Positions 2,727 through 36,079 of a stretch of 57,159 bases of DNA are shown here, in pieces. This stretch comes from Motilimonas eburnea (GTDB lineage: Bacteria; Pseudomonadota; Gammaproteobacteria; Enterobacterales; CBDFNC01). The position numbers and the translations under genes were made by a program. The stretch lies in the NCBI RefSeq assembly GCF_021295345.1, contig NZ_JAIMJB010000003.1, positions 205,863 through 263,021 of the forward strand. The letters are read 5' to 3'. The notes under the pieces are model-generated. The model did no database searches, was not told where the DNA came from, and saw nothing but the letters and a program-made list of their open reading frames with translations. Positions within the stretch are counted from its first letter, which is position 1. Each line of letters starts with the position of its first letter.

Positions 2727-2743
2727 TCGGAACGTTTTCTGCT
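2727..2743 (+). promoter_or_regulatory. Candidate sigma54 promoter upstream of sypM-like gene
   Basis: The sequence TCGGAACGTTTTCTGCT carries GG and GC separated by exactly 10 bases, the -24/-12 geometry of sigma54 promoters. It lies about 50 bp before the acetyltransferase start. In V. fischeri, sypM is preceded by a SypG-dependent sigma54 promoter. The -24 box (CGGAAC) departs from TGGCAC, so this is a moderate match. Confidence 0.55.
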
Positions 2744-2792: not shown

Positions 2793-3530
2793 ATGACAAC
2801 ACTTAGTTTAACCCACGCCAAACAGTGGTTAAAAACGAGCCCGCACCCCTTTGCCCGCGGCTTGTTTAATACCCTTAAAACCCTGATGCAATGTTCAATT
2901 CCAGCTCCCAAGTGGCTGTTTAAACCTATATTTTGGTTTTATACCAGTTTAACTGGTCTGCTTAGCTGGCTAAGTCGCAGCTTATTTTGGACGCCGATGT
3001 TTAAAAGCCAATGTCGACAAACCGGCAAAGGACTTTTTCTCTACGGTGGCATGCCCTACATCAGTGGCTCACCATATATCTCCCTGGGTCACCATGATCG
3101 CATTAGTGGCCACATCACCATCTCTGGCCGTAGCCAAGAAAAAAGACCAGAGCTCATTGTCGGTGACAATGTCGATATCGGTTGGATGACCACCTTAGCC
3201 GTTGGCAGCCAAATTATTCTCGAAGATAACGTTCGCATTGCAGGACGCGCCTTTCTAGCGGGTTACCCCGGCCATCCGTTAGACAATGCCATGCGCGCAG
3301 CGGGCATGCCGGATACACCTGATCAAGTAGGCAAAATTCATATCAAAAATGGCGCGTGGCTAGCAACCGGGGTCAGTGTGATGGCCGGTGTGACCATTGG
3401 CGAAGGCAGTATTATTGCAGCTGGCAGTGTGGTTACAAAAGACATTCCCGATTTTGTTGTCGCTGCAGGCTCACCTGCTAAGGTGGTCAAACAGCTTACT
3501 CCTAGCGCCGCCTGTAGCCCAAAATCCTAA
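2793..3530 (+). CDS. sypM: Hexapeptide-repeat acyl/acetyltransferase of polysaccharide locus (SypM-like)
   Basis: The 245-residue product has a positively charged, partly hydrophobic N-terminal region (about 1-75) and then a left-handed beta-helix of hexapeptide repeats (about 90-235), ending in the typical GEGSIIAAGSVVTKDIP and SPAKVV segments of O-acetyltransferases. It would add an acetyl group to the sugar polymer or its lipid-linked precursor in the cytoplasm. The start is supported by GAGGAAA seven bases upstream. It is the first gene of a same-strand run to 20081, behind a sigma54-like element, and its place just before N-O-P-Q-R equivalents is what suggests the syp name. The acetyl acceptor is unknown. 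Confidence 0.8.
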   Translation: MTTLSLTHAKQWLKTSPHPFARGLFNTLKTLMQCSIPAPKWLFKPIFWFYTSLTGLLSWLSRSLFWTPMFKSQCRQTGKGLFLYGGMPYISGSPYISLGHHDRISGHITISGRSQEKRPELIVGDNVDIGWMTTLAVGSQIILEDNVRIAGRAFLAGYPGHPLDNAMRAAGMPDTPDQVGKIHIKNGAWLATGVSVMAGVTIGEGSIIAAGSVVTKDIPDFVVAAGSPAKVVKQLTPSAACSPKS

Positions 3531-3548
3531 CCAAATGAGGGCGTAACC

Positions 3549-4700
3549 ATGACAAGATCTATGTTGGTGTTTGGTGAAGATTGGGGCGGCCTACCCAGCA
3601 GTAGCCAACACCTCATTAAAGGCCTGGTGCAGCAATACCACACTCGCGTAAATTGGGTCAATTCCATTGGCCTGCGCCAACCTCGAGTGAGTATTCGGGA
3701 TCTTAAGCGCGTGATAAGCAAGTTAGCCAGTAAAGGCTCAGCCCAAGTACCACTTGCTGAAACAACCCCGCAAACAAATCAAGCCAAGCCCTTTAAGGTA
3801 TTAGCTCCCAAGGCTTGGCCTGCACCACAACATCATTGGGCCAGAGCCATCGCCAGCCAAATGCTCGCCAAGCAATTAGCCGCATACAGTGCTGACATCA
3901 TTTTCACGGCATTACCCACCGCAATTGACACTATCAATCAATTGCCTCATCAGGCCTTAGTTTATTATGCTGGGGATGATTTTGGCGCTTTGGCAGGCGT
4001 CGATCACACCACCGTTTTGGCCAGAGAGCACACCTTGTTACAGCAAGCCGATTTGGTGATTGCTGCCAGCAACGCCTTAGCCGATTTACTTCATTCAAGG
4101 GCCCCGCAGCAAAAGAATATTCAGGTTTTACCTCACGGCGTTGACCTGGAGTTATTTCAAAGTGCGGCTCCCCCTGCCGCTGAGCTAGGCTCAGGTCACC
4201 TCGTTGCAGGCTTCTACGGCAGCCTGTCCGAGTGGCTTAATCAACCCTTGCTCGTTGAGGTTATGCACGCCCTCCCTCATTGGCAGTTTGTGTTTATCGG
4301 CAAAATAGAAACCGATATTTCAATGCTATTGGCCATGCCTAATTTTGTTCATCTAGGGGCTAAGCCCCATCATCAATTACCCCGTTACAGTCAACACTGG
4401 CACGCAAGCCTGTTGCCTTTTGTTGATAACCCTCAGATCCAAGCCTGCAATCCACTTAAGCTACGGGAGTACCTCGCCGCCGGTCGCCCCGTGCTGAGCA
4501 CCTATTTTCCGGCATTGGAGGAATACCGTGACAGTGTCCACCTAGTGCAAAATAGCCAAGATTTAGTACAGCATTTACGCGCAATTGAGCAAAACCAGCC
4601 TAGAATTCAACTAGCATGCCGACTTGGCTTACAACAAGTGCAACAGCAAAGCTGGCACCACCGCGTAACCCAATTAGCCACTTGGCTGGAGCGCTTATGA
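3549..4700 (+). CDS. sypN: Glycosyltransferase, GT-B fold (SypN-like)
   Basis: The 383-residue protein has a family 1/4-type two-domain layout. The C-terminal nucleotide-sugar half includes NIQVLPHGVDLELF, an HLGAKPHHQLPRYSQHW-type segment and NPLKLREYLAAGRPVLST, all typical of GT-B enzymes. It would transfer a sugar from a nucleotide donor during assembly of the polysaccharide repeat unit. It follows the acetyltransferase by 18 bases and its stop overlaps the next start as ATGA, which implies translational coupling. The syp assignment rests on gene order. The donor sugar and acceptor cannot be deduced. Confidence 0.82.
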   Translation: MTRSMLVFGEDWGGLPSSSQHLIKGLVQQYHTRVNWVNSIGLRQPRVSIRDLKRVISKLASKGSAQVPLAETTPQTNQAKPFKVLAPKAWPAPQHHWARAIASQMLAKQLAAYSADIIFTALPTAIDTINQLPHQALVYYAGDDFGALAGVDHTTVLAREHTLLQQADLVIAASNALADLLHSRAPQQKNIQVLPHGVDLELFQSAAPPAAELGSGHLVAGFYGSLSEWLNQPLLVEVMHALPHWQFVFIGKIETDISMLLAMPNFVHLGAKPHHQLPRYSQHWHASLLPFVDNPQIQACNPLKLREYLAAGRPVLSTYFPALEEYRDSVHLVQNSQDLVQHLRAIEQNQPRIQLACRLGLQQVQQQSWHHRVTQLATWLERL

Positions 4701-6142
4701 AAACCCAAACCAAGAGTCTAAGCTACCGTTTTTATTGCATTTTAGCCGGAGGCTGGCGACAACGTTACCTCATCGTTATGCCAATTTTGTTGATGCCGAT
4801 ATTGGGGGCGCTGATCGGCATAATGACGCCTAAGCAGTACCACGCTCACACGAGCATGTTGATTCAAGAAACCTCCAAGATGAATCCGTTTCTCGAAGAT
4901 TTTGCCGTTTCCGCCATGCTCAAAGAGCGTATCGCAGCGCTGCAAACCTTATTGCATAGCCGTCATATTTTAAGCGCCGTTGCCCGTGAGCGCGGTTTGA
5001 TCAATGAGGATAGCTCTGCCAGTGAGCATGACAGCGCCATCGCAAAATTGTCCAACGCGCTCAACATGAGCATGGCTGGAAAAGACTTAATTCGGATCGA
5101 CTATAAAAGCCACCAGCCCGCTGGCATGAAAGAAACCCTCACAGTGGTCAGTGAGCATTTTATTGAGCAACTATTGGCACCCGAGCGCTCATCAATGCGA
5201 GATTCAACCCAGTTTTTGGCCGACCTATTGGTCGAGCGTAAAGCCGACTTAGCCCAAGCAGAGCAAGCACTCGCCGAGTATAAAAATATCAACGCCGCAC
5301 AACTGCCCGAATTACATGTCAGTAGCGTGGCGCGCTTGTCGCAATTACAGCAAACCTTAGCCGAGAAAGAAGCCGAACTTGCTGGAGCTCGAAAAAGCTT
5401 GGGCAGCCTAGATGCGCAACTGTCCAAAACCAACCCAGTGGTGGGGCGCTTAGAAGAACAAATCGTAACCTTACAATCTGAATTGGCTGTATTAAGAGCG
5501 CGGTATACCGACAATCATAGCCAAGTGTTAGGAACCATACGTAAAATTAATCGCCTTGAAGCCGAACGCCAGAAAGCCCTCACCAATAATGACGCCGGGA
5601 TCAACACCAGCCAATTGTGGGATATCGCCAGTACCGTTAGCCAGGATCAAAACCGCCCCAACAGCCAGCCATTGCTGATATCACAAATGGAAAACTTACA
5701 GGCAGCCCGTAGCCAAGTCACCCGTTTAGAAGAAGAAACGGCAAGCTTGGTAAAGCTGATTAAACCATTACAACAACAGGTTGCACGCTACGGTGAACAA
5801 GAACGCAGTTTGTCACAACTCATCCGTGAGATTGACGTTAAACGCGAGCTGTATCATGAGCTCGCTCAGCGCCATGAGATGGCCCGAGTGACCGGTTCCC
5901 TTGGTAACTACGAACAAGAGAAAAGAATAAAAATCATTGACTTGCCTTACACACCTAGCAATCCGAGTAACCTTCCTCTCATCATTTATGTCGTACTTGG
6001 GTTAATAGCAGGTATTGCCCTTGGCGTCGGTTTAGCCACCTTAATTGAGGTATCCGACACCACCATACGCCGGCAAGAGCAATTAATTTTACTCACTGGC
6101 AAGCCTGTTTTGGCGCGGATCCCACCATTGCAGGCTAATTAG
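4697..6142 (+). CDS. sypO: Polysaccharide chain-length/export protein, Wzz/GumC family (SypO-like)
   Basis: I place the start at the ATG overlapping the preceding stop (ATGA), giving 481 residues; an in-frame upstream start at 4616 would add 27 residues inside the previous gene and is less likely. A transmembrane segment at about residues 23-45 and another near 440-465 flank a long periplasmic region rich in coiled coil (about 170-420), the classic Wzz topology. The C-terminal cytoplasmic tail is short and has no kinase domain, so an ATPase partner is expected; the CpsD-like product encoded at 12911 is the obvious candidate. The protein should set polymer length and connect inner-membrane synthesis to the outer-membrane exporter. 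Confidence 0.87.
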   Translation: MKTQTKSLSYRFYCILAGGWRQRYLIVMPILLMPILGALIGIMTPKQYHAHTSMLIQETSKMNPFLEDFAVSAMLKERIAALQTLLHSRHILSAVARERGLINEDSSASEHDSAIAKLSNALNMSMAGKDLIRIDYKSHQPAGMKETLTVVSEHFIEQLLAPERSSMRDSTQFLADLLVERKADLAQAEQALAEYKNINAAQLPELHVSSVARLSQLQQTLAEKEAELAGARKSLGSLDAQLSKTNPVVGRLEEQIVTLQSELAVLRARYTDNHSQVLGTIRKINRLEAERQKALTNNDAGINTSQLWDIASTVSQDQNRPNSQPLLISQMENLQAARSQVTRLEEETASLVKLIKPLQQQVARYGEQERSLSQLIREIDVKRELYHELAQRHEMARVTGSLGNYEQEKRIKIIDLPYTPSNPSNLPLIIYVVLGLIAGIALGVGLATLIEVSDTTIRRQEQLILLTGKPVLARIPPLQAN

Positions 6143-6162
6143 CAAAACGCAATGCAGCCTGC
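6130..6162. promoter_or_regulatory. Inverted repeat GCAGGCT-N19-AGCCTGC overlapping the sypO stop
   Basis: Seven-base arms at 6130-6136 and 6156-6162 are centred about 70 bp upstream of the -24 element at 6214. The left arm lies within the last codons of sypO. Position relative to the promoter resembles the inverted repeats before the other two sigma54 elements, and TGCA cores recur, so an activator site is possible. It could equally be chance or a weak hairpin. Confidence 0.25.
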
Positions 6163-6213
6163 TTTTAGCTAACAAACAAAAACAAAAAACCATTAATTAA
6201 CAAAGAGTTATTA

Positions 6214-6230
6214 TTGGCACAAAAAATGTA
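6214..6230 (+). promoter_or_regulatory. Candidate sigma54 promoter upstream of sypP-like gene
   Basis: TTGGCACAAAAAATGTA has a perfect -24 box (TTGGCAC) and correct spacing, but the -12 element reads GT instead of GC. It lies about 35 bp before the glycosyltransferase start at 6265 in a 122-bp gap, the only sizeable gap between sypO and sypR. SypG-dependent transcription from a promoter before sypP is known in V. fischeri. Confidence 0.6.
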
Positions 6231-6264
6231 CTTCTTCTTTTATCATCAGTAGGGGGAAGTCATC

Positions 6265-7347
6265 ATGGCACAACACAACTCGATTCAAGTGGTACAACAT
6301 TTAAAACCTGGCGGCATTGAAACCTTAGCGCTCGAGCTCGATAAGCTCAGCCCCAGCAAAGGAAACCGGTATATCTTAAGCCTAGAAGGTGAACGCCAAC
6401 ATGCCTTGAACACCTGGCCTCGCCTACAACCTGTCGCCAACCGACTTATCTTTATGAACAAGCAGCCAGGATTACGACTCGGCTTAATATGGCAGTTGGC
6501 TCAGTTATTTCGCCAGCTCAATATCAGTACGGTGCACAGCCACCATATTGGCCCACTTTTTTATGCTGGAGCTGCGGCTCGCCTTGCTCGCGTGTCACAC
6601 TTGATCCACACCGAGCACGACGCTTGGTACCTGCGAGAAATGAAAAATCGCCGCTTACAAAAACGCCTTTGTAAACTGCTGCAACCCAAAATTATCGCCG
6701 ACGCCAAACGCGTCGCGCTAGACGTAGCCAGCTACCTCAAGTGCCCTCCCCCTCAAGTCATTTTAAATGGGATCGATAGTCAGTATTTTAAGCCTGGCAA
6801 TTCGGTATTGGCACGCGCCAAATTTAACTTACCCTACACCAAATACATCATAGGAAGCGGCGGTCGTTTAGCACCAGAAAAAGGCCATAAGTACCTTATA
6901 CAAGCGCTGCCTTTATTGCCTAAACAAACCCATTTGGTGATTGCTGGCCACGGCTCAGAGTTTGTTCCATTAAACGAATTAGTAACCAAATTAGGCTTGT
7001 CCGATCAGGTGACCTTTTTAGGCCGAGTTGATGATATGGTGAGCTTCTACCAAAGCTTAGACGTGTTTTGTTTGCCTTCATTGAATGAAGGCATGCCACT
7101 GGCCCCTCTTGAGGCACAAGCCTGCGGTGTGCCAGCTGTCGTCACGGCCACTGGCGCATCCCGTGAAGCGCTTTGCCCCATTAGCGGCCGTATCGTACAA
7201 AAGGCCAATCCTCAAGCCCTTGCGGCGGCTTTACTTGAAGCCATGCTCAGTGAAACACAGGCCAGCATTCCCAGAGGCTTTGTCACCGATCATGCAGACA
7301 TTCGCCGCACTATCGCAGCTTATCAAGCATTAACAAACGTATCTTAA
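6265..7347 (+). CDS. sypP: Glycosyltransferase family 4 (SypP-like)
   Basis: The 360-residue product is a GT-B enzyme. The N-terminal half has the glycine-rich HLKPGGIETLALEL acceptor-domain signature, and the C-terminal half has GSGGRLAPEKGHKYLIQAL, a GRVDDMVSFYQSLDVFCLPS segment and the retaining-enzyme EGMPLAPLEAQACGVP motif (about residues 275-290). It should be a retaining glycosyltransferase acting on lipid-linked sugars at the cytoplasmic face. The start follows a GGGGAAG ribosome site. It begins a new transcription unit behind a sigma54-like promoter and is followed within 17 bases by the next glycosyltransferase. Donor and linkage are unknown. Confidence 0.88.
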   Translation: MAQHNSIQVVQHLKPGGIETLALELDKLSPSKGNRYILSLEGERQHALNTWPRLQPVANRLIFMNKQPGLRLGLIWQLAQLFRQLNISTVHSHHIGPLFYAGAAARLARVSHLIHTEHDAWYLREMKNRRLQKRLCKLLQPKIIADAKRVALDVASYLKCPPPQVILNGIDSQYFKPGNSVLARAKFNLPYTKYIIGSGGRLAPEKGHKYLIQALPLLPKQTHLVIAGHGSEFVPLNELVTKLGLSDQVTFLGRVDDMVSFYQSLDVFCLPSLNEGMPLAPLEAQACGVPAVVTATGASREALCPISGRIVQKANPQALAAALLEAMLSETQASIPRGFVTDHADIRRTIAAYQALTNVS

Positions 7348-7364
7348 CGAGAAGGAAGAGCATC

Positions 7365-8633
7365 ATGCAGTCCACTCAAGTTTACCTCCTCATCACAGAT
7401 TGGCTAGGGGTCATTGAGGCCGACCTCAATCAAGGCCCATTAGCGTGGTTCACCTTAATCTGTATCACACTGGTCATTTATCATCACGTGGCTTACCCCT
7501 TGCTTCTAAAATGGATTGCCAGTCGCAAAATGGAGCCCGCCACCCCATCAGTGACCATTTCATCTTGGCCAGACATCACCATTTTGATGCCTGTGTTTAA
7601 CGAGGCGAAATATATTGAAAGTAAAATTTACAACTTAGGTACGCTGGATTACCCCAACACCAAATTGAAAATTGTGATTGGGTTTGATGGTTGTAGCGAC
7701 GATTCCGTGCAGCGCGCGCAGCACGCACTTGCCATGCCCGAAAACAGCCACCTCAATTGCCAGTTAGTCATCAACCCACACAACCAGGGTAAAGTGGGCT
7801 TAATCAATCAATTAATGCAAGGTGTGACGGCCACAACGGCTGCGGCTGACACTTGGGTCGCCTTAACCGACGTCTCGGCCTTGATCTCTTTCGACGCCCT
7901 AACCCTAGCCGCACAGCATATCGCCAACAGTAGCCATCAAGTGAACCAACATAAACCGGTTGGCGTGATTTGCAGTCATTATCAAATGTTACAACCCGGT
8001 AGCGAAGGCGAAGCGACCTATTGGCGCTACCAAAGTAACATCAAGCGACAAGAAGCCACCTTTGGTGCCACGTTAGGAGCGCATGGTGCCTTATATCTAT
8101 TTAGACATGATTTGTTTTCTCCCCTCGCCAACGACACCATCAATGATGACTTTATCTTACCCATGCAAATTGTGGCCAAGGGCTATCGCTGTCTCTATGA
8201 ACCCAATATGAACGCGGTGGAGCTAGAACAGGCTAGCCAACAAATGGACAGCCTAAGACGCAAACGCATTGCAGCCGGAAACACGCAACAACTTGTTCGG
8301 TTGCGTTCACTCTTATTGGGTAAAGCCGGGCTGGGGGTCGCCTTTACCTTTCTCTCAGGTAAGGCGTTAAGGGTATTAATGCCCTTTTTAATGCTGGCCA
8401 GTCTGATCTTAAGCGCTTGGCTAAGTTATCAGTCATGGATCTTTGCCAGCTTATGCTTGATTCAACTGAGCCTGTATACCTTGGCACTGCTCGCTCCCTT
8501 GCTTGATCCCCACTGCCCTAAGATCATTCGCACCATTAATTACTTGGTACTAGGGCACTGCGCTAACCTAGTGGGTAGCACCCGATACCTATGTGGCCTA
8601 GAGCAGCACAGATGGCAAAAAATTGAAAAATAA
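7365..8633 (+). CDS. sypQ: Membrane glycosyltransferase family 2 (SypQ-like)
   Basis: The 422-residue product has one N-terminal membrane segment (about 27-47), a GT-A domain with ITILMPVFNEA and the IGFDGCSDDS nucleotide-sugar binding motif, the later NDDFILP acidic motif, and at least two C-terminal membrane helices (about 325-385). This is the layout of processive or membrane-anchored GT2 enzymes such as those making chitin- or PNAG-like polymers, though a terminal QxxRW motif is not clear. Because the window contains no Wzy-type polymerase, this enzyme deserves attention as a possible polymerising transferase, but V. fischeri SypQ has the same place in the cluster. The start follows an AAGGAAGAG ribosome site. 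Confidence 0.86.
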   Translation: MQSTQVYLLITDWLGVIEADLNQGPLAWFTLICITLVIYHHVAYPLLLKWIASRKMEPATPSVTISSWPDITILMPVFNEAKYIESKIYNLGTLDYPNTKLKIVIGFDGCSDDSVQRAQHALAMPENSHLNCQLVINPHNQGKVGLINQLMQGVTATTAAADTWVALTDVSALISFDALTLAAQHIANSSHQVNQHKPVGVICSHYQMLQPGSEGEATYWRYQSNIKRQEATFGATLGAHGALYLFRHDLFSPLANDTINDDFILPMQIVAKGYRCLYEPNMNAVELEQASQQMDSLRRKRIAAGNTQQLVRLRSLLLGKAGLGVAFTFLSGKALRVLMPFLMLASLILSAWLSYQSWIFASLCLIQLSLYTLALLAPLLDPHCPKIIRTINYLVLGHCANLVGSTRYLCGLEQHRWQKIEK

Positions 8634-8675
8634 CTTGTTTACAACTCGCATTATTAAAGATCAAAGAGGCTCACT

Positions 8676-9359
8676 ATGAACACACTCCCATTTAAAACCG
8701 TAAGCGTTGACAGTGTTGCAGATGAATCTAGCTATATCGACCCCATGACGCGTCGCTGTAAACGTGCTTTTGATTTAATCATCGCCACCACCGCCTTGGT
8801 GATGCTACTGCCTTTGTTTCCATTAATAGCCCTTGCTATCAAATTTGATTCCAATGGCCCAGTGCTGTTTAGCCAACCACGTATTGGTCGAGCCAAAGCG
8901 CAGCAGACGGCTATTTTTAACATGCTAAAATTTCGAACCATGGTTGCCGATGCCGAACGATACAGTGGTGCAGTATGGGCGCAAAAATCCGACCCGAGGA
9001 TCACCCGCATGGGTAAGTTCTTGCGCAAAACGCGTTTAGATGAGATCCCTCAACTGATCAATGTCGTTCGCGGTGACATGTCCTTGGTTGGCCCCCGTCC
9101 TGAGCGACCAGGTTTCTATGCAAAATTAGAACAAGCCATCCCATACTTTGCTGAACGCACCTATGAAGTATCGCCCGGCATAACAGGGCTTGCTCAGGTG
9201 AATCAAGGTTATGACACCTGCATTGAAGACGTGAAGAACAAAGTCGCCTTTGATCATGGCTACGCCTTAAGTTTATCGTCGCCTTGGCGCTGGTTAAAAA
9301 CCGACTGCGCCATTTTACTTAAAACCTTACTGGTGATGATCACTGGCCGCGGTCAATAA
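8676..9359 (+). CDS. sypR: Polyprenyl-phosphate sugar phosphotransferase (SypR-like)
   Basis: The 227-residue product is a short-form initiating transferase: a single membrane segment (about 28-52) and the conserved catalytic region with FNMLKFRTM, an RKTRLDEIPQLINVVRGDMS block and the LVGPRPERP motif. It lacks the N-terminal multi-helix region of WcaJ/WbaP-type enzymes, as in PglC-like small forms. It would place the first sugar phosphate on undecaprenyl phosphate at the inner membrane, starting polysaccharide assembly. It ends the M-R biosynthetic group; a 211-bp gap with regulatory sites then precedes the sypA-like gene. Confidence 0.9.
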   Translation: MNTLPFKTVSVDSVADESSYIDPMTRRCKRAFDLIIATTALVMLLPLFPLIALAIKFDSNGPVLFSQPRIGRAKAQQTAIFNMLKFRTMVADAERYSGAVWAQKSDPRITRMGKFLRKTRLDEIPQLINVVRGDMSLVGPRPERPGFYAKLEQAIPYFAERTYEVSPGITGLAQVNQGYDTCIEDVKNKVAFDHGYALSLSSPWRWLKTDCAILLKTLLVMITGRGQ

Positions 9360-9420
9360 GCGTCCCCAATAGCAAGGACGCGATGATGCCCCACCTCATT
9401 TATCCTCACCTTCTGTGATG

Positions 9421-9448
9421 GCAAGCTGCAAAGCGCTTTGCAGCTTGC
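9421..9448. promoter_or_regulatory. Perfect 28-bp palindrome between sypR and sypA
   Basis: Arms of 14 bases meet with no loop, and symmetry is exact throughout. It lies 64-91 bp upstream of the sigma54 -24 GG at 9513, a typical location for an enhancer-binding-protein site. There is no T-run on the correct side for either strand, so an intrinsic terminator is less likely. It shares a TGCAA/TTGCA core with the inverted repeat at 2653. I infer a SypG-type activator site; other regulators are possible. Confidence 0.5.
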
Positions 9449-9510
9449 AAAAAATACCAATCCCGGGTCTCACCAAATAATTAAAACCTACAAATTCAAT
9501 ACCTTACACA

Positions 9511-9528
9511 TTGGCACTGGTTATGCAA
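9511..9528 (+). promoter_or_regulatory. Sigma54 promoter upstream of sypA-like gene
   Basis: TTGGCACTGGTTATGCAA matches the sigma54 consensus TGGCAC-N5-TTGCA almost exactly, with GG and GC 10 bases apart. It is 43 bp before the STAS gene. The sigma54-dependent activator gene at the end of the same locus is the natural regulator, and sypA in V. fischeri has an equivalent promoter. Confidence 0.85.
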
Positions 9529-9570
9529 ACTCCTTTACTGTGAAAACACTTATGCAAAAAGGGGAAAACC

Positions 9571-9891
9571 ATGGATATTTATACCAATACACCACAACAA
9601 GATGAGCTCGTCACCTATTTGAGTGGTGACTTTGATGCCCTCAACATCAACCAAATTCGTCAACAATTAGAAGAGGTTGCCAGCCAACATCAAGCTAATC
9701 GCATTATTTTGGACCTCTCACATGTGAACTTCATCGACTCTTCGGGAATTGGTGCCATCGTATTTTTGTTTAAACGCCTACATAAAGAAAAACGTCAACT
9801 AGAATTAATCGGAGCACAAGGACAACCTAGGCAACTTCTTGAATTGTTGAGAATTCATCAAGCAATGCCCGTGACATGGGCGAACGTATGA
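9571..9891 (+). CDS. sypA: STAS-domain anti-anti-sigma-like regulator (SypA-like)
   Basis: This 106-residue protein is a single STAS domain. The DSSG motif at residues 56-59 (NFIDSSGIGAIVFL) places Ser57 where SpoIIAA/RsbV-type proteins are phosphorylated. In V. fischeri, SypA is a positive biofilm regulator that is switched off by SypE phosphorylation and reactivated by SypE dephosphorylation. The locus encodes a matching kinase-REC-phosphatase at 17102, so the same partner switch is likely. The start follows an AAGGGGA ribosome site, and the gene heads the A-B-C-D-F-E-G group behind the best sigma54 promoter in the window. Confidence 0.9.
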   Translation: MDIYTNTPQQDELVTYLSGDFDALNINQIRQQLEEVASQHQANRIILDLSHVNFIDSSGIGAIVFLFKRLHKEKRQLELIGAQGQPRQLLELLRIHQAMPVTWANV

Positions 9892-9963
9892 AAGCGCATA
9901 AAGAAAGAGTTTAGCCGCCACGCCCATTGACGATCAGGTGATAGGTTAAAAACAGGAGCCAAT

Positions 9964-10761
9964 ATGAAAGACAAGCTATTGAGTTTAATCGCCAGCCTCG
10001 CCCTTCTTTCTGGTTGCAGTCAATGGGCTGAACCGGGACAAGGCGGCATGGCGGAGCACAATTTGTCCGAGCTCATTCCAGTGGAAGCAGAGCAGCCTTT
10101 GACTGCCGATCACGGCCTGCGGTTTGACTTTGAGTTGCAACGCCAACTACTCGATACCTTAGTCAACCAAGGCGCACAGCTATGTTACCCCGCGACGGTT
10201 TCTCAACTGCAACAAAGAGAAAACCGCATTGCTCGCGAGCTCAAAGCGGGCATGAGTCAAGATGCTGCCAATACCTTACTGGTTCAACGCCAACAAACCG
10301 CTCAATTGGAGCGCCAGTTAAACCAAGCGTTAGCAGAGTCTGATTGCGTCATTACCCAGCGCGCACATCAAACCGCCACCCAAGTGGGCATGACCATAGA
10401 GCAACTATTAAATGCCGATAATCAGTTCGCCCTCAACTCAAGTGAACTCAACCCCAAATACATCGGCCGCCTTGCCGAAGCCGTTGCCTTATTAAAACAA
10501 CAAGATCATTACCGCTTAATGATATACGGCCACGCCGACAGCAGCGGCAGTGAACAAGCCAATCAGGCTCTTTCACAAGCCCGTGCCGAACAAGTCTCTC
10601 GATACTTAGCTATTTTAGGCTTAGACCCGGCCCGCTTTGAGGTGGCCGCGATGGGCGAAAGCGCGCCGCTTTTCGATCAAGAAGGGGCAGAAAATCATTT
10701 AGTTAACCGCCGCGTTAGCATTACCTTGATTGAAAACGCGCATCAAACCCAAGCGCAATAA
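9964..10761 (+). CDS. sypB: OmpA-family lipoprotein (SypB-like)
   Basis: The 265-residue product has a lipoprotein signal with lipobox LLSGC near residue 18, a helical middle region rich in Q and R (about 60-140), and a C-terminal OmpA-like peptidoglycan-binding domain (about 145-255; IYGHADSSGSEQANQALSQ and the LVNRRVSI ending). It should sit in the periplasm anchored to a membrane and bind cell wall, possibly bracing the export complex formed with the SLBB protein downstream. The start has an upstream AGGAG. V. fischeri SypB has the same domain. Confidence 0.88.
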   Translation: MKDKLLSLIASLALLSGCSQWAEPGQGGMAEHNLSELIPVEAEQPLTADHGLRFDFELQRQLLDTLVNQGAQLCYPATVSQLQQRENRIARELKAGMSQDAANTLLVQRQQTAQLERQLNQALAESDCVITQRAHQTATQVGMTIEQLLNADNQFALNSSELNPKYIGRLAEAVALLKQQDHYRLMIYGHADSSGSEQANQALSQARAEQVSRYLAILGLDPARFEVAAMGESAPLFDQEGAENHLVNRRVSITLIENAHQTQAQ

Positions 10762-10793
10762 CGATAACGAACAGCGTGCTCAAGGAGGCCACC

Positions 10794-12902: not shown

Positions 12903-12910
12903 GAGGCCCT

Positions 12911-13681
12911 ATGACTCAATTAGCCCCGATAACGAACGAGTATGACGGCGCCTTTAACGCCAGCGCTAAATTGCACCAATACCAAGAGCTAGAACAGATC
13001 TACAATCAAACCTTTGGTCAAGGGATCCGTACCCTAGCCGTAGTAGGGTGCGCGCCTAAAGAAGGCGTGACCACCCTGATTAGCGCCTTGGCTGAGCGCA
13101 CCTTGCTCGCCGGTAAGTCAACCTTAGTGGTTGATCTCAATTTACATCACCCCAGTCTGGCACGTTTACTCCCCAGCCAAGATACGGCAACGAATACCGA
13201 TATATCAACACAAGATAACCAAGCAGAATTGGTGAGTATTAACCACAGCCAAAGTGTTTTCACGGGTATATGCATAAGCCAACGCCGAGAATGGCTACAG
13301 AAATGTCGTGAGCCGCAATTTCTCAAGCAACAATTAGCCGGCTGGCTTGAAGAATTCGACCATGTGCTCGTCGATACCAGTGCCTTAAACCAACGTAATC
13401 AGCAAAATATTCCGGCTGAATTAGTCGCCGCCGCAGCCCAAGGCTGCGTTCTCGTCGCGCAAGCGGGGCAATCAACCGAAGGCATGCTCCAATCTGCGCT
13501 CGCCCGCTTGGACGAAGCCAGCGCTAACTTGCTCGGTTGTGTCATTAACGATCAATACAACCCCCGTTTAGCGGACGAAATATGCAGGGAAGTTAGGCGG
13601 TTACAAAACAAATTGCCCAAGTTAGCAGCTTGGCTATGTCAGCGGGTCAAACAAACCCGTCTCCTTAACACCGAAATTTAA
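12911..13681 (+). CDS. sypD: CpsD/BY-kinase-like ATPase with degenerate P-loop (SypD-like)
   Basis: The 256-residue protein has the MinD/CpsD fold signature: a beta strand leading into a Walker A region GCAPKEGVTTL (about residues 46-56), an A-prime-like VVDLNLHHPSLARLL and a Walker B-like HVLVDTS. The lysine that should precede the Ser/Thr pair is replaced by valine, although an upstream lysine typical of the deviant P-loop remains. The C-terminus ends without the tyrosine cluster of autophosphorylating BY-kinases. It may be an ATP-binding partner of the Wzz-like protein rather than a true tyrosine kinase. It lies eight bases after sypC with an AGGAGG site. Confidence 0.82.
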   Translation: MTQLAPITNEYDGAFNASAKLHQYQELEQIYNQTFGQGIRTLAVVGCAPKEGVTTLISALAERTLLAGKSTLVVDLNLHHPSLARLLPSQDTATNTDISTQDNQAELVSINHSQSVFTGICISQRREWLQKCREPQFLKQQLAGWLEEFDHVLVDTSALNQRNQQNIPAELVAAAAQGCVLVAQAGQSTEGMLQSALARLDEASANLLGCVINDQYNPRLADEICREVRRLQNKLPKLAAWLCQRVKQTRLLNTEI

Positions 13682-13710
13682 CCTGTCATCGATAGAATAA
13701 GGTCAGCATT

Positions 13711-16700
13711 ATGAGCTTCAGGATTAAAAATACCCTTGCAACCCTCATTCTCACCCTGCTGATTTTAGTGGCCAGTCTAGGCTACTTGCACTATCACATG
13801 GCGAAACTACATCAGCAACAGGTTCAACACCAAAGCCAGTGGTTAGCCAAACAACTCATTGCACAGCTTCAACAAACAGACCAAGATGCGTCAAGCCTCA
13901 AGCAAGCCTTGCAAGCTCTCATAAAACGCTCCCCCCTACTTCAGGTGCGCCTGCTTGATGATAACCAGCGTGTGTTGGTTGAAGCCAATACCACCTTAAG
14001 CCAACCCGTTGCACCTTATACCTTCATTCACCCTTGGCCCAATGAAAAGGGCGGCATCAGCCAGCTAGCCTTGGTGATTGACACGTCACAAATCGCTCCC
14101 CCATTACCCGTATCCACCAGCTTGGGCGTTGCGATGAGTATTTGGATACTCAGTGGGGTGATTGCGTTTTTTATTTCAAGTGCCATTAGTCGTCAATTAG
14201 AAGATTTAAAGCAAGGTGCCATTTTGGTTCAGACCATGGGGCCGGGCCACCAACTGCCCGAGTTAGTCAATCACGAGCTCAGTGAGGTCACGCAAGCATT
14301 TAACCGCATGTCCCTTGAGCTTGCCAATAATCAGCAAAGCTTACAAAGCTCCAATCAACAGCAGCAAAAAATTGCCACTATCGCTAATAAAAACACCGCG
14401 TTAAACAAAGCGATCCTATCTGCCTCCCTCGATGGCATTATTACTATCGACCATCAAAGTAAGATCATCGAATATAACCTACAAGCACAAGCCATGTTTG
14501 GTTGGAGCCGCGAGGAAATGCTAGGCCAATCCCTAACGGATCGCATTATTCCTCCTGAGTTTCGTGAAGCGCACACTAAGGGGATGAAGCATTATATGGC
14601 CTCAGGGGAAGGCCCTGTGTTCGGGCGGCGCTTAGAATTAGTCGCCTTGCATAAAGACGGCCACACTATCCCGATTGAAATCGCTATCTCACCCATTCGC
14701 TATGGCGGCGAAGCCCTGTTTACCGCATTTATTCGCGATATTTCCGAGCGACTTGAAGCTGAGCAAGAACTCAAATTAGCAGCCCATGCGTTTGACTCTA
14801 TTGAGCCTATGTTTATTACCGATGCCCAAGGCACCATATTGCGTAGCAACCGGGCCTTTTCCATGGTCACCGGGTTTAGCGCTGAGGAAGCCATCGGACA
14901 AAATGCGCGACTGTTATCTTCGGGTAAACATGATCCCGCCTTTTACCGCGAAATGTGGCGTGCTCTATTACAGAATGGCCAATGGCACGGTGAGATCTAC
15001 AATCAACGTAAGAATGGCGAGATTTACCCCGAGCATCTTACGATTACCGCGGTAAAAGATGCAGATTTAAATGTCAGCCATTACATTGCACACTTTATTG
15101 ATATTAGTGCACAAAAGAAAAATGAAGCCAGATTAAAACAAGCTCGCCAAGAAGCAGAGCAAGCCAGTGAGGCGAAAAGCCGCTTTTTAGCCACCATGAG
15201 CCACGAAATCCGTTCACCCTTGAATGCCATTATTGCCATGACGGATATGTTACTGGAGTCCGAACTTAACGCAGAACAGCAAGAGCTGGCCCAGCTGGCT
15301 AGCCAAGGAGGCCATACCTTAATGGCCTTGATAAACAACATTCTCGATTTTAGTAAGATTGAATCCGATCATTTGGTGCTGCAACAAGATTGGTTTAGCT
15401 TACAACAAACTGCCGAAGCCGTGGTCACTCTGCTCGCCCCCCAAGCACAACAAAAAGACATTGCCTTGTGTTTAGCCATCGATCCCGACTTGAAACAAAG
15501 TTACTTTGGTGATCCACTCAGGTTAAGCCAAGTGTTAATTAACCTGATCAGCAACGCTATTAAGTTTACCGAGCAAGGCGGCGTTGCCGTCACCATCAGC
15601 ATCGTTCGCCAGCAAGGTATCGATATTCAAGTCAGAGACACGGGGATAGGCATCAGCGAAGCAGACCAAGCCAATATTTTCAGTGAATTTGTCCAAGCGG
15701 AAAGCAGCTCTAATCGGCGCTTTGGCGGCAGTGGTCTTGGTCTTGCCATCAGCCAACGCATCATTGAGTTAATGGATGGCACCATAGAAGTCGCAAGTAC
15801 CTTAGGACAAGGCTCTGTCTTTACGGTTTGGCTGCCACTGCAAGCAAGTAAGGATGCGGAGCTCGTCATCCCAATCAAACAACGCGGAAACCCCCACCAA
15901 TTGCACTTTTATCACGCGATTGATAATCAAGTGCTCATCGATAGCTTGACCAAGCAGCTCGCTTGGTTTGCACTCCCTTTGATCGATATTCGCAGCCAAT
16001 CAGCCAAACTTGAGCAACCCAGCCTGGTATTTATTGATAACGATCTTTCGGGCCAGCGACGTCAAGCGCTCTCCATCGAGAACACGGCGCAATTAGAATT
16101 TATTAACCTACTGCCTCTGGATAAACAAACCCTATTTCATACCCAGCGCCCAGAAGGTTATCAAGGCAGTTTGGCGCTGCCGATCAAGCTTAACAGCCTA
16201 GTGCAATTACTTGGCAGTGGCAGTGTCACTAAACATCATCTTCACGCTCATCAAGTTGAGGCTAACCCCAGTATCACCGCCAGTCCAAATCCTCAACATA
16301 TTCTCTTGGTTGAGGACAGCCCAACGAATCAAGCCGTGGCCAAGGCGCTGCTAAAGAAAATAAACCCTGTCATCAGTGTGGCTGAAAATGGCAAAGACGC
16401 CGTTCAGCAATGTAAGCAACAAAAGTTTGCTTTGATCTTAATGGATCTGGCGATGCCCGTGATGGATGGGCTAACGGCCACCGAGATGATCCGCAATGGC
16501 GCGGGATTGAACCAACAAACCCCAATTATCGCCATGACGGCCAATGCGTTTGCCGAAGATAAGAACCGTTGCTACCAAGTTGGTATGAATGACTTTCTTA
16601 GCAAACCTTTGGATAAAGACGTATTTCGAAGTACCGTGCTGGAGTGGTTAACACTGGCGGCCAGTGTCAACGACCCCGATGAGCAGCCAACCGCACAGCC

Positions 16701-17121
16701 AACACAAGAGCAGCAGGCGGAGCCCGCTGCAGAATCAACACAAGCTGCGCCGGTGTCGGTGAATAAATCAACCCTAAAACAACTTAAAAAAGACATCCCA
16801 ACCCAGGTATTGAATGACATTTTGGCCATATTCAGCCAAGAAAGTGAGCAAAGGATCGCCGATATTCACCATCACTATCAACAGCAGGATTGGCGCTTAC
16901 TTGAAATTGAAGCTCACAGTTTAAAAAGCAGTGCGGGTAGCTTTGGCCTGGAACAATTACAGCAGCTGGCAAAAGCCATCGAAGACCTTAGCCACCAACA
17001 GCAAGCGTCCGACTTGGCGCCCTATATTGAGAAATTAGCGCACGTCTTTAACACGTCACAACAAGATTTGCAGCTCGCACTTGCGGCGATGGAGAGCCAA
17101 GATGAAAAAGCAACTGATTGA
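13711..17121 (+). CDS. sypF: Hybrid sensor histidine kinase with PAS, REC and HPt (SypF-like)
   Basis: The 1136-residue protein has two membrane segments (about 7-27 and 140-160) around a small periplasmic domain, a HAMP-like linker, two PAS domains (about 230-350 and 355-475), HisKA with phosphoacceptor His498 (MSHEIRSPLN), an HATPase domain (G-box GGSGLGLA), a REC domain with Asp912 (LMDLAMPVMDG) and an HPt domain with His1069 (EAHSLKSSAGSFG). In V. fischeri, SypF passes phosphate through its HPt to SypG and SypE. The same phosphorelay is inferred here. The next gene starts 20 bases before its stop. The input signal is unknown. Confidence 0.9.
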   Translation: MSFRIKNTLATLILTLLILVASLGYLHYHMAKLHQQQVQHQSQWLAKQLIAQLQQTDQDASSLKQALQALIKRSPLLQVRLLDDNQRVLVEANTTLSQPVAPYTFIHPWPNEKGGISQLALVIDTSQIAPPLPVSTSLGVAMSIWILSGVIAFFISSAISRQLEDLKQGAILVQTMGPGHQLPELVNHELSEVTQAFNRMSLELANNQQSLQSSNQQQQKIATIANKNTALNKAILSASLDGIITIDHQSKIIEYNLQAQAMFGWSREEMLGQSLTDRIIPPEFREAHTKGMKHYMASGEGPVFGRRLELVALHKDGHTIPIEIAISPIRYGGEALFTAFIRDISERLEAEQELKLAAHAFDSIEPMFITDAQGTILRSNRAFSMVTGFSAEEAIGQNARLLSSGKHDPAFYREMWRALLQNGQWHGEIYNQRKNGEIYPEHLTITAVKDADLNVSHYIAHFIDISAQKKNEARLKQARQEAEQASEAKSRFLATMSHEIRSPLNAIIAMTDMLLESELNAEQQELAQLASQGGHTLMALINNILDFSKIESDHLVLQQDWFSLQQTAEAVVTLLAPQAQQKDIALCLAIDPDLKQSYFGDPLRLSQVLINLISNAIKFTEQGGVAVTISIVRQQGIDIQVRDTGIGISEADQANIFSEFVQAESSSNRRFGGSGLGLAISQRIIELMDGTIEVASTLGQGSVFTVWLPLQASKDAELVIPIKQRGNPHQLHFYHAIDNQVLIDSLTKQLAWFALPLIDIRSQSAKLEQPSLVFIDNDLSGQRRQALSIENTAQLEFINLLPLDKQTLFHTQRPEGYQGSLALPIKLNSLVQLLGSGSVTKHHLHAHQVEANPSITASPNPQHILLVEDSPTNQAVAKALLKKINPVISVAENGKDAVQQCKQQKFALILMDLAMPVMDGLTATEMIRNGAGLNQQTPIIAMTANAFAEDKNRCYQVGMNDFLSKPLDKDVFRSTVLEWLTLAASVNDPDEQPTAQPTQEQQAEPAAESTQAAPVSVNKSTLKQLKKDIPTQVLNDILAIFSQESEQRIADIHHHYQQQDWRLLEIEAHSLKSSAGSFGLEQLQQLAKAIEDLSHQQQASDLAPYIEKLAHVFNTSQQDLQLALAAMESQDEKATD

Positions 17122-18619
17122 TATAGAAAGGGCTGCCAACCTTGAAGAGATAAGTTTAGTACGCCACTTATTGGCGCGCGTCCTTGCTACGCTGGCGATT
17201 TCCTCCGCCAATCAAAATAACATCTTACTTTGCTTTGCCGAACTCACGAGCAATATCATCTTACACGCCAACCCTAGCGCTAAAGTCATCCGCAGCCAAC
17301 TCACTTGTGACAGCGACACCTTGCAATTGTCATTGCTTCACGATGGTCAAGCCTGGCAACCAGAGCGCCCTCAATCCCTCAAACTAGATAACAGTATCAG
17401 TCAGCAAACCCATGGGCGAGGCTTGGGTCTACTCCAAGCCTTATGCCCTGATTGGCAATTTCAACTCACCCCCATGGCAGGCATTGTGATGCGCTGGCCT
17501 AATCCGCCTGTGCCTCAAGCCGATAAACTCTTGCTGGTTGAAGACGACAACACCATGCGCACACTGTTATCGGCCTATTTAAGCACCGACTATGAGATAG
17601 ATTGCGCCAATAATGGCCAACAAGCGTGGCAAATGCTGCAGCAAAATAACTACTTATTAGTGCTATCCGACATTCATATGCCCACCATGGACGGCCTTGC
17701 TTTACGGGAAAAGACCTTAAGTTTACAAAATACCAGCTTGACCCCGTTTATTTTCATTAGCGCTGATTCAGCGGATACCATCAAGAGCCGCGCGAACTTA
17801 CTGGCCATTGATGACTATTTAGTCAAGCCCATCGACAAGCAAGCCCTGTTACAAACGATAGACCGGGTATTGATGCGCTATCATCAACTCAGTCATGATT
17901 TCAGCGCCATTATCAACCAAAGGATCAGCAATAGTCTGCCTTGCCTTACCCCAAGGGACACCCATGATTGGCGCTTTGCACTCATTGCACGTAATACCGG
18001 CCAAGGAGGCGGTGATTTACTCCGCACTTACCCGCAGGGCGATAACATTAGGCTTATGCTGTGTGATGTAGAAGGCCATGATATTGATGCTAAATTTTTT
18101 GCTCATGCTTGGGCGGGGTATTTACATGGGCTATGTAAAACACAAGCAGCCAACCCCTTATCCCTGTTGTTACAGCAAATATCCCAAGCCGCCTTTGCCG
18201 ACCAGTTATTGCAACAAAAGCTACTCACCCTCCTTGCCCTCGACCTGGCTCCCAAGGGACACTTTAGTTATGCCTGTGCTGGCCACCCGGCGCCACTGTT
18301 AATTTGCCAGCAAGAAGTTAAACAACTCAGTGGCTCAGGCATGTTGGCGGGGTTAGTGGCGGATACTCAATACCAAACCATGCACGGCCAACTTGAACCG
18401 GGACAACGATTATTGCTGTTTACTGATGGTTTATTTGAATCCGCCAAAACGACATCACAACGCCAACAATTAGAGCACACCTTACTCGAACAACTCCCCC
18501 TTACCCTGACACTTCCTATAAAACAGGCAGCGCGTCATTTAATGTCTGTTTTTGAGCAATACGCCACACTAGACAGTGATGATACCTTGCTATTATTAAT
18601 TGAACTCAATGACAATTAA
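17102..18619 (+). CDS. sypE: RsbW-like kinase / REC / PP2C phosphatase fusion (SypE-like)
   Basis: I set the start at ATG 17102, which overlaps the hybrid kinase gene by 20 bases and follows GGAGA; it gives 505 residues. The N-terminal domain (about 1-140) is an RsbW/SpoIIAB-type serine kinase with the ELTSNIILHAN N-box and a GRGLGL G-box. A central REC domain follows, phosphoacceptor Asp190 (LSDIHMPTMDG), then a C-terminal SpoIIE/PP2C phosphatase with metal-binding DVEGHD, YACAGHPAP and LLLFTDGLFE motifs. This is the exact order described for V. fischeri SypE, which both phosphorylates and dephosphorylates SypA depending on its REC state. The STAS protein encoded at 9571 should be the substrate. 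Confidence 0.92.
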   Translation: MKKQLIDIERAANLEEISLVRHLLARVLATLAISSANQNNILLCFAELTSNIILHANPSAKVIRSQLTCDSDTLQLSLLHDGQAWQPERPQSLKLDNSISQQTHGRGLGLLQALCPDWQFQLTPMAGIVMRWPNPPVPQADKLLLVEDDNTMRTLLSAYLSTDYEIDCANNGQQAWQMLQQNNYLLVLSDIHMPTMDGLALREKTLSLQNTSLTPFIFISADSADTIKSRANLLAIDDYLVKPIDKQALLQTIDRVLMRYHQLSHDFSAIINQRISNSLPCLTPRDTHDWRFALIARNTGQGGGDLLRTYPQGDNIRLMLCDVEGHDIDAKFFAHAWAGYLHGLCKTQAANPLSLLLQQISQAAFADQLLQQKLLTLLALDLAPKGHFSYACAGHPAPLLICQQEVKQLSGSGMLAGLVADTQYQTMHGQLEPGQRLLLFTDGLFESAKTTSQRQQLEHTLLEQLPLTLTLPIKQAARHLMSVFEQYATLDSDDTLLLLIELNDN

Positions 18620-18644
18620 GTCACCTATTTTTCAGGAGCAATCC

Positions 18645-20081
18645 ATGCATGTAATGCCCAAAGTGTTACTGGTTGAAGATACCCTATCACTGGCTGCAAC
18701 CTATAAGCATTACCTGAGCAACGAAGCCATTTTTTTAACCCATGTTGATAGTGGCGAACGGGCGAAGCAGGCCATCGCTGATTTATTACCCTCTTTGGTG
18801 CTATTAGACCTCAAGCTACCCGATATGTCAGGTCAGGAGGTGTTAGCCTGGATCCGTGAACACGAATATCCCTGTAGTGTTGTGGTCATGACAGCCCATA
18901 GCTCGGTGGATGTTGCGGTAGATGTTATGCGTCTCGGGGCACAAGACTTTCTGGAAAAGCCCTTTGATGCAGCCCGCCTTCGCACGACGGTCATGAACGC
19001 ATTAAAACAGCACCGGCTCAACCATATCGTGGCAGAAATTCAAAGCACGGCACGCACCAATTACCACGGTTTTATTGGCTCAAGCCTTGAAATGCAAGCG
19101 GTTTATCGCATCATCGATGCCGCCGCCCCCAGTAAAGCCACGGTGTTTATTACCGGCGAAAGCGGCACAGGCAAAGAAGTGTGTGCTGAAGCTATCCACA
19201 AACAAAGCCCACGAAAAAACAAACCTTTTATCGCCTTAAATTGTGGCGCCATTCCCCGTGACTTAATGGAAAGTGAAGTCTTTGGCCATGTTAAGGGGTC
19301 GTTTACCGGTGCTTCAAGTGAGCGCCAAGGGGCTGCAAGTTTAGCTGATGGAGGCACCTTGTTCCTTGATGAAATAGGGGAAATGGATCTCGATCTTCAG
19401 ACCAAGTTACTGCGCTTTGTACAAACCGGCGTGGTACAAAAAGTGGGTGGCAGCAAAGCCGAGCAGGTTGATGTACGGTTTATTTGTGCCACTAATAAAG
19501 AGCCTTTAGCCGAAGTCGCGGCAGGACGTTTTCGCGAAGATCTGTACTACCGATTACATGTGGTGCCCATTGCCCTGCCCCCTTTGCGTGAGCGCGGTGA
19601 TGATATCATTCGCATTGCCGAGGCCTTTCTCGAGCAATTTAGCCAAGAAGAGAGCAAAAACTTTAAAGACTTATCTCAACCTGTGATTGAGCGGCTATTA
19701 GATTACCCTTGGCCGGGTAATATCCGCCAGCTACAAAATATAATCCGCAACGTAGTGGTGCTAAATGATGGCGAATCGGTGTCACTTGAACATTTACCGC
19801 CGCCCCTTAATCAAGCGACGCCACAAAAAGCGGCTGAAACTAAGCCGAAGGCCGCGCCCAGCCAGTCCATCCCAGCCCCCCGAGAACAAACAAGCACCCG
19901 TGTCGCCGAAGCCGCTACGCTGTTAGACATGCCAGTACGCCCTCTCGCCGAGGTGGAAAGAGACACCATAGAGCACGCGATTAACCTTTGTGATGGTAAT
20001 ATCCCTAAAGCCGCCGCCCTGTTAGCCGTGAGCCCCTCTACCATCTACCGCAAGAAAATGGTCTGGGATCAAGGCGAATAA
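18645..20081 (+). CDS. sypG: Sigma54-dependent response regulator (SypG-like)
   Basis: I choose ATG 18645 because AGGAG lies six bases before it; an in-frame TTG at 18600 is weaker. The 478-residue product has an N-terminal REC domain (Asp55 in LLDLKLPDMSG), an AAA+ sigma54 activation domain with Walker A GESGTGKE, the sigma54-contact loop GSFTGA (a serine variant of GAFTGA) and Walker B LFLDEIGEM, and a C-terminal Fis-type helix-turn-helix. V. fischeri SypG activates the syp promoters when phosphorylated by SypF. The sigma54-like elements at 2727, 6214 and 9511 are the expected targets. Confidence 0.93.
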   Translation: MHVMPKVLLVEDTLSLAATYKHYLSNEAIFLTHVDSGERAKQAIADLLPSLVLLDLKLPDMSGQEVLAWIREHEYPCSVVVMTAHSSVDVAVDVMRLGAQDFLEKPFDAARLRTTVMNALKQHRLNHIVAEIQSTARTNYHGFIGSSLEMQAVYRIIDAAAPSKATVFITGESGTGKEVCAEAIHKQSPRKNKPFIALNCGAIPRDLMESEVFGHVKGSFTGASSERQGAASLADGGTLFLDEIGEMDLDLQTKLLRFVQTGVVQKVGGSKAEQVDVRFICATNKEPLAEVAAGRFREDLYYRLHVVPIALPPLRERGDDIIRIAEAFLEQFSQEESKNFKDLSQPVIERLLDYPWPGNIRQLQNIIRNVVVLNDGESVSLEHLPPPLNQATPQKAAETKPKAAPSQSIPAPREQTSTRVAEAATLLDMPVRPLAEVERDTIEHAINLCDGNIPKAAALLAVSPSTIYRKKMVWDQGE

Positions 20082-36035: not shown

Positions 36036-36079
36036 AAAGCATGACTATCATGTTTTTAAACACATTGAGGGAGAAGATA

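Follow-up and report, generated by a model that had tools for sequence, protein, structure and literature searches.

The syp locus of Vibrio fischeri comprises 18 genes, sypA to sypR, arranged as four sigma54 operons that start at A, I, M and P (PMC10804989). Loci of the related scv type occur in 148 species of 28 genera, two Shewanella included, and in some Vibrio the member genes lie about 15 to 1,612 kb apart (PMC8941931); the corresponding eps cluster differs in gene order and has inverted blocks outside the Vibrionaceae, and in V. breoganii FF50 the genes P-Q-R are 60 kb away (PMC5801674). Both syp loci outside Vibrio (PMC8941931) and altered order outside the Vibrionaceae (PMC5801674) are already in print. 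Here we describe a syp locus of Motilimonas eburnea, found in a stretch of 57,159 nucleotides (the window; contig NZ_JAIMJB010000003.1, positions 205,863 to 263,021). The genus is not named in the main text of the scv survey, whose available parts hold no operator analysis (PMC8941931), and the main text of a paper on Motilimonas contains no word beginning with syp (PMC13182010). Among the matches listed from the open-licence literature, none reports a Motilimonas syp locus or a TTGCA operator of a non-Vibrio syp locus.

We propose, with a probability of about 0.62, that the window carries one half of a complete 18-gene syp/scv system that was acquired apart from the locus of M. pumila, was once contiguous, was cut by a genome rearrangement and acts as one regulon. 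All 18 genes are present in the M. eburnea genome, 13 in the window and five, sypH to sypL, at a second site. The 13 window genes are adjacent plus-strand open reading frames (ORFs) that span positions 2793-20081 in the order M-N-O-P-Q-R-A-B-C-D-F-E-G. An initial annotation of the window had matched them family by family to V. fischeri sypM-R and sypA-D, F, E, G, with the two blocks swapped and F ahead of E, and had placed a syp locus outside Vibrio; the comparison bears this out, down to the order. Each of the 13 is the reciprocal best hit of its V. fischeri counterpart (37-63% identity), reciprocity being scored between the window syp set and the V. fischeri syp set, not whole proteomes; the reference is the emors.2.1 locus, whose 18 ORFs were given the letters A-R by their order. 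Expected Pfam domains were found in 12 of the 13, and the SypD-like ORF has weak Pfam matches only. Two of the regulators were also compared with other proteins of the M. eburnea genome: SypG is 56% identical to V. fischeri SypG against 40% for its best-scoring paralog in its own genome (other paralogs reach 45%, over shorter stretches), and SypE has no further match in the M. eburnea genome at E ≤ 1e-20. The features of the locus and its flanks are as follows, with probable refined starts for sypO (4694), sypE (17102) and sypG (18645) set by reading frame only.

316-2544, minus strand: patatin-like phospholipase gene with POTRA/Omp85 matches, left flank (Pfam, synteny)
2653-2667, no strand: candidate SypG operator ATTGCAATTTGCAAT upstream of sypM, a perfect palindrome
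2728-2742, plus strand: weak sigma54-like -24/-12 site upstream of sypM, score 11/14
2793-3530, plus strand: sypM, predicted hexapeptide acetyltransferase (45% identity to V. fischeri SypM, reciprocal best hit; Pfam)
3549-4700, plus strand: sypN, predicted GT4 glycosyltransferase (48%, reciprocal best hit; Pfam)
4694-6142, plus strand: sypO, Wzz-like chain-length protein (55%, reciprocal best hit; GNVR domain)
6215-6229, plus strand: sigma54-like site upstream of sypP, score 11/14
6265-7347, plus strand: sypP, predicted GT4 glycosyltransferase (41%, reciprocal best hit; Pfam)
7365-8633, plus strand: sypQ, predicted GT2 glycosyltransferase (44%, reciprocal best hit; Pfam)
8676-9359, plus strand: sypR, predicted initiating sugar-phosphate transferase (58%, reciprocal best hit; Bac_transf domain)
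9437-9451, no strand: candidate SypG operator TTTGCAGCTTGCAAA upstream of sypA, a perfect palindrome
9512-9526, plus strand: sigma54-like site TGGCACTGGTTATGC upstream of sypA, score 13/14
9571-9891, plus strand: sypA, single-STAS switch protein (43%, reciprocal best hit; alignment)
9964-10761, plus strand: sypB, OmpA family (46%, reciprocal best hit; Pfam)
10776-12902, plus strand: sypC, Wza-like exporter with a Poly_export domain and SLBB repeats (63%, reciprocal best hit; Pfam)
12911-13681, plus strand: sypD, ATPase-like, weak AAA_26 and BcsQ Pfam matches only (37%, reciprocal best hit)
13711-17121, plus strand: sypF, hybrid kinase PAS-PAS-HisKA-HATPase-REC-Hpt (39% in the kinase core, reciprocal best hit; Pfam)
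17102-18619, plus strand: sypE, HATPase_c_2-REC-SpoIIE/PP2C (37%, reciprocal best hit; Pfam, alignment)
18645-20081, plus strand: sypG, REC-sigma54 activator-HTH_8 (56%, reciprocal best hit; Pfam)
20150-21157, minus strand: trpS, right flank, followed by gph, rpe and dam (Pfam) and then by a run that we take to be damX-aroB-aroK-pilQPONM

The genes sypH-I-J-K-L, which include the flippase gene sypK and the polymerase gene sypL, are missing from the window block, a point that the initial annotation overlooked. A flippase-family search of the M. eburnea genome, which returned three places, located them on another contig beside lpdA, as five full-length ORFs in syp order (G000:C1:26869-33349; 36-59% identity to V. 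fischeri). Both syp blocks are interior to their contigs (176 and 263 kb), so they lie at least about 64 kb apart, and because five of the 18 genes, flippase and polymerase among them, sit elsewhere, the window block is not the whole module. A possible IS110 transposase remnant upstream of sypH (L048:6809-6880) was rejected, as it is a 24-residue peptide without a Pfam or plasmid match; the same stretch forms a sigma54-like promoter, and Marinifaba and other loci have an equivalent ahead of H. Elsewhere in the M. eburnea genome, a region designated G000:C2 (L051:1275-18643) carries Wzz-like, priming-transferase-like and glycosyltransferase-like ORFs about 6 kb from a sigma54 regulator that is 40% identical to SypG.

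The positions of the two halves were compared across four Motilimonas genomes: M. eburnea (G000), M. pumila (G002) and two others, G001 and G003. In M. pumila, lpdA is directly followed by the patatin gene, then by a 487-residue ORF and an 865-residue ORF that we take from its length and start to be acnB; a single gene separates trpS from an ORF presumed, from the same features, to be trpG. In G001 and G003 the patatin gene instead follows trpS, with ~230-300 bp between them, and lpdA is on the trpG side. M. eburnea has the backbone of G001 and G003, but with M-...-G between trpS and the patatin gene and H-L beside lpdA, such that the two syp halves occupy the two junctions of the rearrangement that separates M. 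pumila from the other three genomes. No SypL or SypC (E ≤ 1e-15) and no SypE (E ≤ 1e-20) was found in G001 and G003, and no syp remnants are detectable in their corresponding gaps. The simplest account of these arrangements is that a contiguous locus was cut by the rearrangement, M-R, A-D, F, E, G staying between the patatin gene and trpS and H-L staying at lpdA, and was then lost in G001 and G003. If the old site lay between lpdA and the patatin gene, the old order would have been M-R, A-G, H-L, as in Marinifaba; if it lay between trpG and trpS, the old order would have been H-L, M-R, A-G, as in M. pumila. A single inversion would suffice if the two sites have opposite orientations in the chromosome.

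The syp locus of M. pumila is contiguous, lies at a third site, and has the order H-L, M-R, A-E, x, F, G, in which x encodes a PF12974 phosphonate-type periplasmic binding protein (L044:17629-18510) between sypE and sypF. Relatives of this protein occupy the equivalent place in two Psychromonas, and a protein of this type is found between D and F in some vibrios (PMC5801674); it could be a periplasmic sensor partner of SypF. To place the two Motilimonas loci we used concatenated SypC, SypD, SypE and SypG (27 rows, 1,911 columns, LG+G4, quick search); a larger tree was built from 42 of 82 protein sets, 15 of which were dropped for the 27-row tree. In the 27-row tree M. pumila joins Psychromonas with a Shimodaira-Hasegawa approximate likelihood ratio test (SH-aLRT) support of 100, and the window joins Marinagarivorans and Agaribacterium with 92, a support that falls to 9 once Marinifaba is added; in the 42-row tree the window has no supported placement. 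An approximately unbiased (AU) test rejects the window and M. pumila as one clade (p 4e-141) and likewise the window with M. pumila and three Psychromonas (p 6.6e-5), which supports separate acquisition of the window locus. None of the rows compared is a close source: the nearest by path length are L066, L059 and L065, which do not show the F-E-G order, and the highest identity, to L066, is 56%. The initial annotation had proposed that the whole polysaccharide-plus-switch module is a transferable unit. Horizontal gain is supported, because SypE, SypC and SypL are absent from two of the four genus genomes and M. pumila carries a locus of different lineage in a different place; that the unit is the whole module does not stand, given the five genes located elsewhere. 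A plasmid-borne source is not supported: the only plasmid records found with a SypE relative are two from Plesiomonas, at 32%. The G+C content of the locus differs little from that of the right part of the window (48.7% and 45.6%), and no transposase or integrase was found among the 28 window ORFs put through Pfam.

Sequences resembling sigma54 sites lie ahead of five syp genes: M, P and A of the window block, and H and I of the island beside lpdA. All five syp starts have a site that scores at least 11 at -90 to -15, versus 6 of 107 control genes (Fisher 3.4e-6); the controls are the remaining genes in stretches of the same genome that have 100 bp or more of upstream sequence. One of these controls has a TGCA-core palindrome within 200 bp, and the patatin gene shares its upstream region with sypM. 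Exactly 75 bp upstream of the sites at M, A and I are the perfect palindromes ATTGCAATTTGCAAT, TTTGCAGCTTGCAAA and AATGCACTCTGCATT. Perfect palindromes of 6-3-6 form number 78 in 216,365 bp of M. eburnea sequence, and the three with a TGCA core all lie at syp promoters, including one in the island; the stricter 13-bp core TTGCAWWWTGCAA occurs once in the 4.59-Mb genome, upstream of sypM. In M. pumila, 83,759 bp contain two copies of TTGCA-N3-TGCAA, one ahead of A and the other ahead of I, and the 15-bp operator pattern has no match in 79.6 kb from G001 and G003. Because sigma54-like sites and the same type of palindrome precede operons at both sites, a single SypG probably regulates both halves in trans, and would do so by a predicted operator that is unlike the V. 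fischeri TTCTCA type. Operons that retain sigma54 promoters of their own, and SypG operators of the TTGCA-N3-TGCAA type, would explain why the break was tolerated. If so, a symbiosis-type biofilm system has kept its whole gene content despite being cut in two by a genome rearrangement, and TTGCA-N3-TGCAA offers a sequence handle for split syp parts in other genomes.

Several observations weigh against this account. The sites at M and P score only 11/14, the window holds 92 sigma54-like sequences with at most 2 mismatches where 73.7 are expected, and no such palindrome was seen ahead of P or H. The looser pattern WWTGCA-N3-TGCAWW has 6 matches in 216 kb, 4 at syp and 2 elsewhere, and the 2 seen in the window are reached by 8 of 100 window shuffles; moreover, the motif was first spotted by eye and then counted, so the counts are not independent. 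No repeat common to both junctions was found, the single inversion hangs on the relative orientation of unlinked contigs, and the account requires that G001 and G003 either lost both halves or never carried them. A SypL tree of 21 rows does not show a common source for H-L and the main block; the AU test on this tree rejects neither the window with M. pumila (p 0.19) nor the window with Agaribacterium and Marinagarivorans (p 0.14).

An alternative, which we consider unlikely but the strongest of the rivals, is that H-L and M-R/A-G arrived as two separate modules, inserted at sites that happen to be junctions. The SypL tree fails to tie H-L to the relatives of the main block, and the modules are shuffled elsewhere, with three contiguous orders known, sypL alone displaced in Psychromonas marina, H-L at least 3.6 kb from M in Marinagarivorans, and sypH and sypL apart in Lamprocystis. 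Such a history, however, needs two insertions at both junctions of one rearrangement, and the same palindrome type is present in both halves. Far less probable is vertical descent of an ancestral Motilimonas locus that was rearranged in M. eburnea and kept whole in M. pumila: although each species carries such a locus, those of M. pumila and Psychromonas form one group and Motilimonas is placed in the Psychromonadaceae (PMC13182010), the AU tests reject the two Motilimonas loci as sisters and the window within the M. pumila and Psychromonas group, and the loci differ in both site and order. It is nearly as improbable that the window block is a degenerate remnant that lost its flippase and polymerase while H-L serve another polysaccharide. 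Loss of K, L or both is reported for several vibrio eps clusters (PMC5801674), but in the H-L island all five ORFs are full length and follow the syp order, and the island has sigma54-like sites and its own palindrome. We favor a once contiguous locus, cut by the rearrangement.

The candidate operator differs from that described in V. fischeri, where SypG binds a TTCTCA-N3-TGM motif and where SypG and LuxO use overlapping sites at qrr1, the LuxO site being TTGCAWWWTGCAA (PMC10162802). The V. fischeri enhancer is TTCTCANNNTGMDWN; TTCTCA-N3-TGM is absent upstream of M. eburnea sypA and was not found in the other window promoters. By its genes and linked SypG the M. eburnea set is a member of the syp/scv group, but its predicted operator is not of the V. 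fischeri type. We surveyed the region upstream of sypA in 69 of 81 loci (40 non-Vibrionaceae and 29 Vibrionaceae; the other 12 have no usable upstream region), loci that are related to one another, so that the p-values overstate. The exact TTGCA-N3-TGCAA core is present in 13 of the 40 non-Vibrionaceae loci and none of the 29 Vibrionaceae (Fisher 3.7e-4; shuffled rate 0.1%), namely the window, M. pumila, two Psychromonas, Thalassotalea, Agaribacterium, one metagenome-assembled genome (MAG) and six Aeromonas, and is lacking in the other 27. In the six Aeromonas stretches SypG is not among the annotated ORFs. Conversely, TTCTCA-N3-TGM is found in 6 of 29 Vibrionaceae versus 0 of 40 others, and a looser TTCTCA-N3-TGAGAA score in 19 of 29 versus 0 of 40 (p 4e-10). 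A looser TGCA motif with 10/12 matches does not separate the groups (10 of 29 Vibrionaceae versus 20 of 40 others, p 0.23), and neither does one with 11/12 matches (1 of 29 and 7 of 40, p 0.13); of the TGCA forms, the exact core alone separates them. The SypG helix-turn-helix (HTH) reads NIPKAA outside the Vibrionaceae, with variants NIPRAA, NIPQAA and NVPRAA, and NVLNAA or NVLKAA within, which is a correlation only.

These patterns lead us to a tentative and somewhat doubtful suggestion: that the ancestral SypG operator was TTGCA-N3-TGCAA, which is the LuxO site in vibrios, and that SypG of the Vibrionaceae shifted to TTCTCA-N3-TGAGAA along with the change in its HTH from NIPKAA-like to NVLNAA/NVLKAA. 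The overlap of SypG and LuxO at qrr1 would then be a leftover of a shared operator, which would account for its origin in V. fischeri, and the ancestral operator would let the cut locus act as one regulon in trans.

The control circuit, which the initial annotation had described as complete, is indeed kept in its domains and, by alignment, in key residues. In SypA, Ser57 lines up with Ser56 of V. fischeri, the residue phosphorylated there, and the Lys-Arg pair required for activity is also present; in an 18-sequence alignment that includes it, the M. eburnea SypE retains the invariant HATPase, REC and phosphatase positions. V. fischeri SypA Arg27, required for control by SypE in that species (PMC4517449), is an Asn in M. 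eburnea. Like V. fischeri syp, the M. eburnea set thus has 18 genes A-R, the SypA serine, a kinase-REC-phosphatase SypE, a HisKA-REC-Hpt SypF and sigma54-like sites at the operon starts A, I, M and P. Unlike it, the set is split in two and ordered M-R, A-D, F, E, G rather than as a contiguous A-R, it has an extra sigma54-like site at H, and its SypF carries two PAS domains that are missing from V. fischeri SypF. Given the features kept in SypA, SypE and SypF and the extra PAS domains, the circuit most likely runs as it does in V. fischeri but responds to another input. With roles assigned from V. fischeri, SypR would prime the lipid carrier, SypH, I, J, N, P and Q would add sugars, SypK would flip the unit and SypL polymerise it, SypO and SypD would set chain length, SypB and SypC would export the polymer and SypM would acetylate it. 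SypF would phosphorylate both SypE and SypG; SypG would activate the sigma54 promoters of both halves in trans, and SypE would switch SypA on by dephosphorylating its serine; biofilm formation is the predicted output. Two other described systems differ in content or in what is displaced: the V. parahaemolyticus scv locus lacks E, F and M (PMC8941931), and in M. eburnea, unlike the Vibrionaceae eps cluster (PMC5801674), the split-off block is H-L and sits at genome rearrangement junctions.

The order of the window genes is not special to M. eburnea: Agaribacterium and Marinifaba share R-A-B-C-D-F-E-G, and Marinagarivorans has A-B-C-D-F-E-G. Among 80 named loci around SypE (the best 80 of 342 relatives), A-B-C-D-F-E-G is found in L092, L103, L104, L114 and L128, C-D-F-E-G in L120 and F-E-G in L101. 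Both Agaribacterium haliotis (L128/L215) and Marinagarivorans algicola (L103/L217/L209), which group with the window in the 27-row tree, have A-B-C-D-F-E-G; unlike M. eburnea, Agaribacterium has H-L before M, one gene apart. Placement of three genes (L, M and C) in 13 genomes gives the order H-L, M-R, A-G in Agaribacterium, P. aquimarina and the L087 and L091 genomes, M-R, A-G, H-L in Marinifaba, and A-G, H-L, M-R in V. fischeri and L066, with a variant, C-D-F-E-G-H-K-L-I-J-M-N, in Thalassotalea. SypL and SypC are on separate contigs in the other five (Marinagarivorans, P. marina, Lamprocystis and two MAGs). In Marinagarivorans 3.6 kb of other genes precede M, so H-L are not adjacent to it; in Lamprocystis H and L lie inside a 27.6-kb contig, apart from M-Q/A-D; and in the two MAGs contig ends and rearrangement are not fully separable. 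SypE itself, at E ≤ 1e-30 and with the top 3-4 candidates per genome scored, is present in 4 of 369 genomes of the class and 28 of 394 of the order, M. eburnea counted.

Some of these loci carry additional features. In P. marina, sypL is alone on another contig, amid ORFs without assignment (L210:10168-11574), and H-I-J-K remain beside M-R, and an exo/endonuclease/phosphatase-family gene lies between sypR and sypA (L219:14514-15527). Just upstream of sypM in Agaribacterium (L215:11818-13650) and Marinifaba (L216:5815-7656) is a gene whose product combines a glutamine amidotransferase domain with SIS domains, the combination seen in glutamine-fructose-6-phosphate transaminase, and ORFs of similar length precede sypM in two MAGs (L213, L214); this hints at supply of an amino-sugar precursor. 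Outside the syp locus, the window also encodes an OLD-like protein with a TOPRIM domain (DUF2813; 50389-52062, minus strand) and a 1045-residue protein (36041-39178) whose sole match is to a bacterial Ig-like domain (Big_1) and which is possibly a surface protein.

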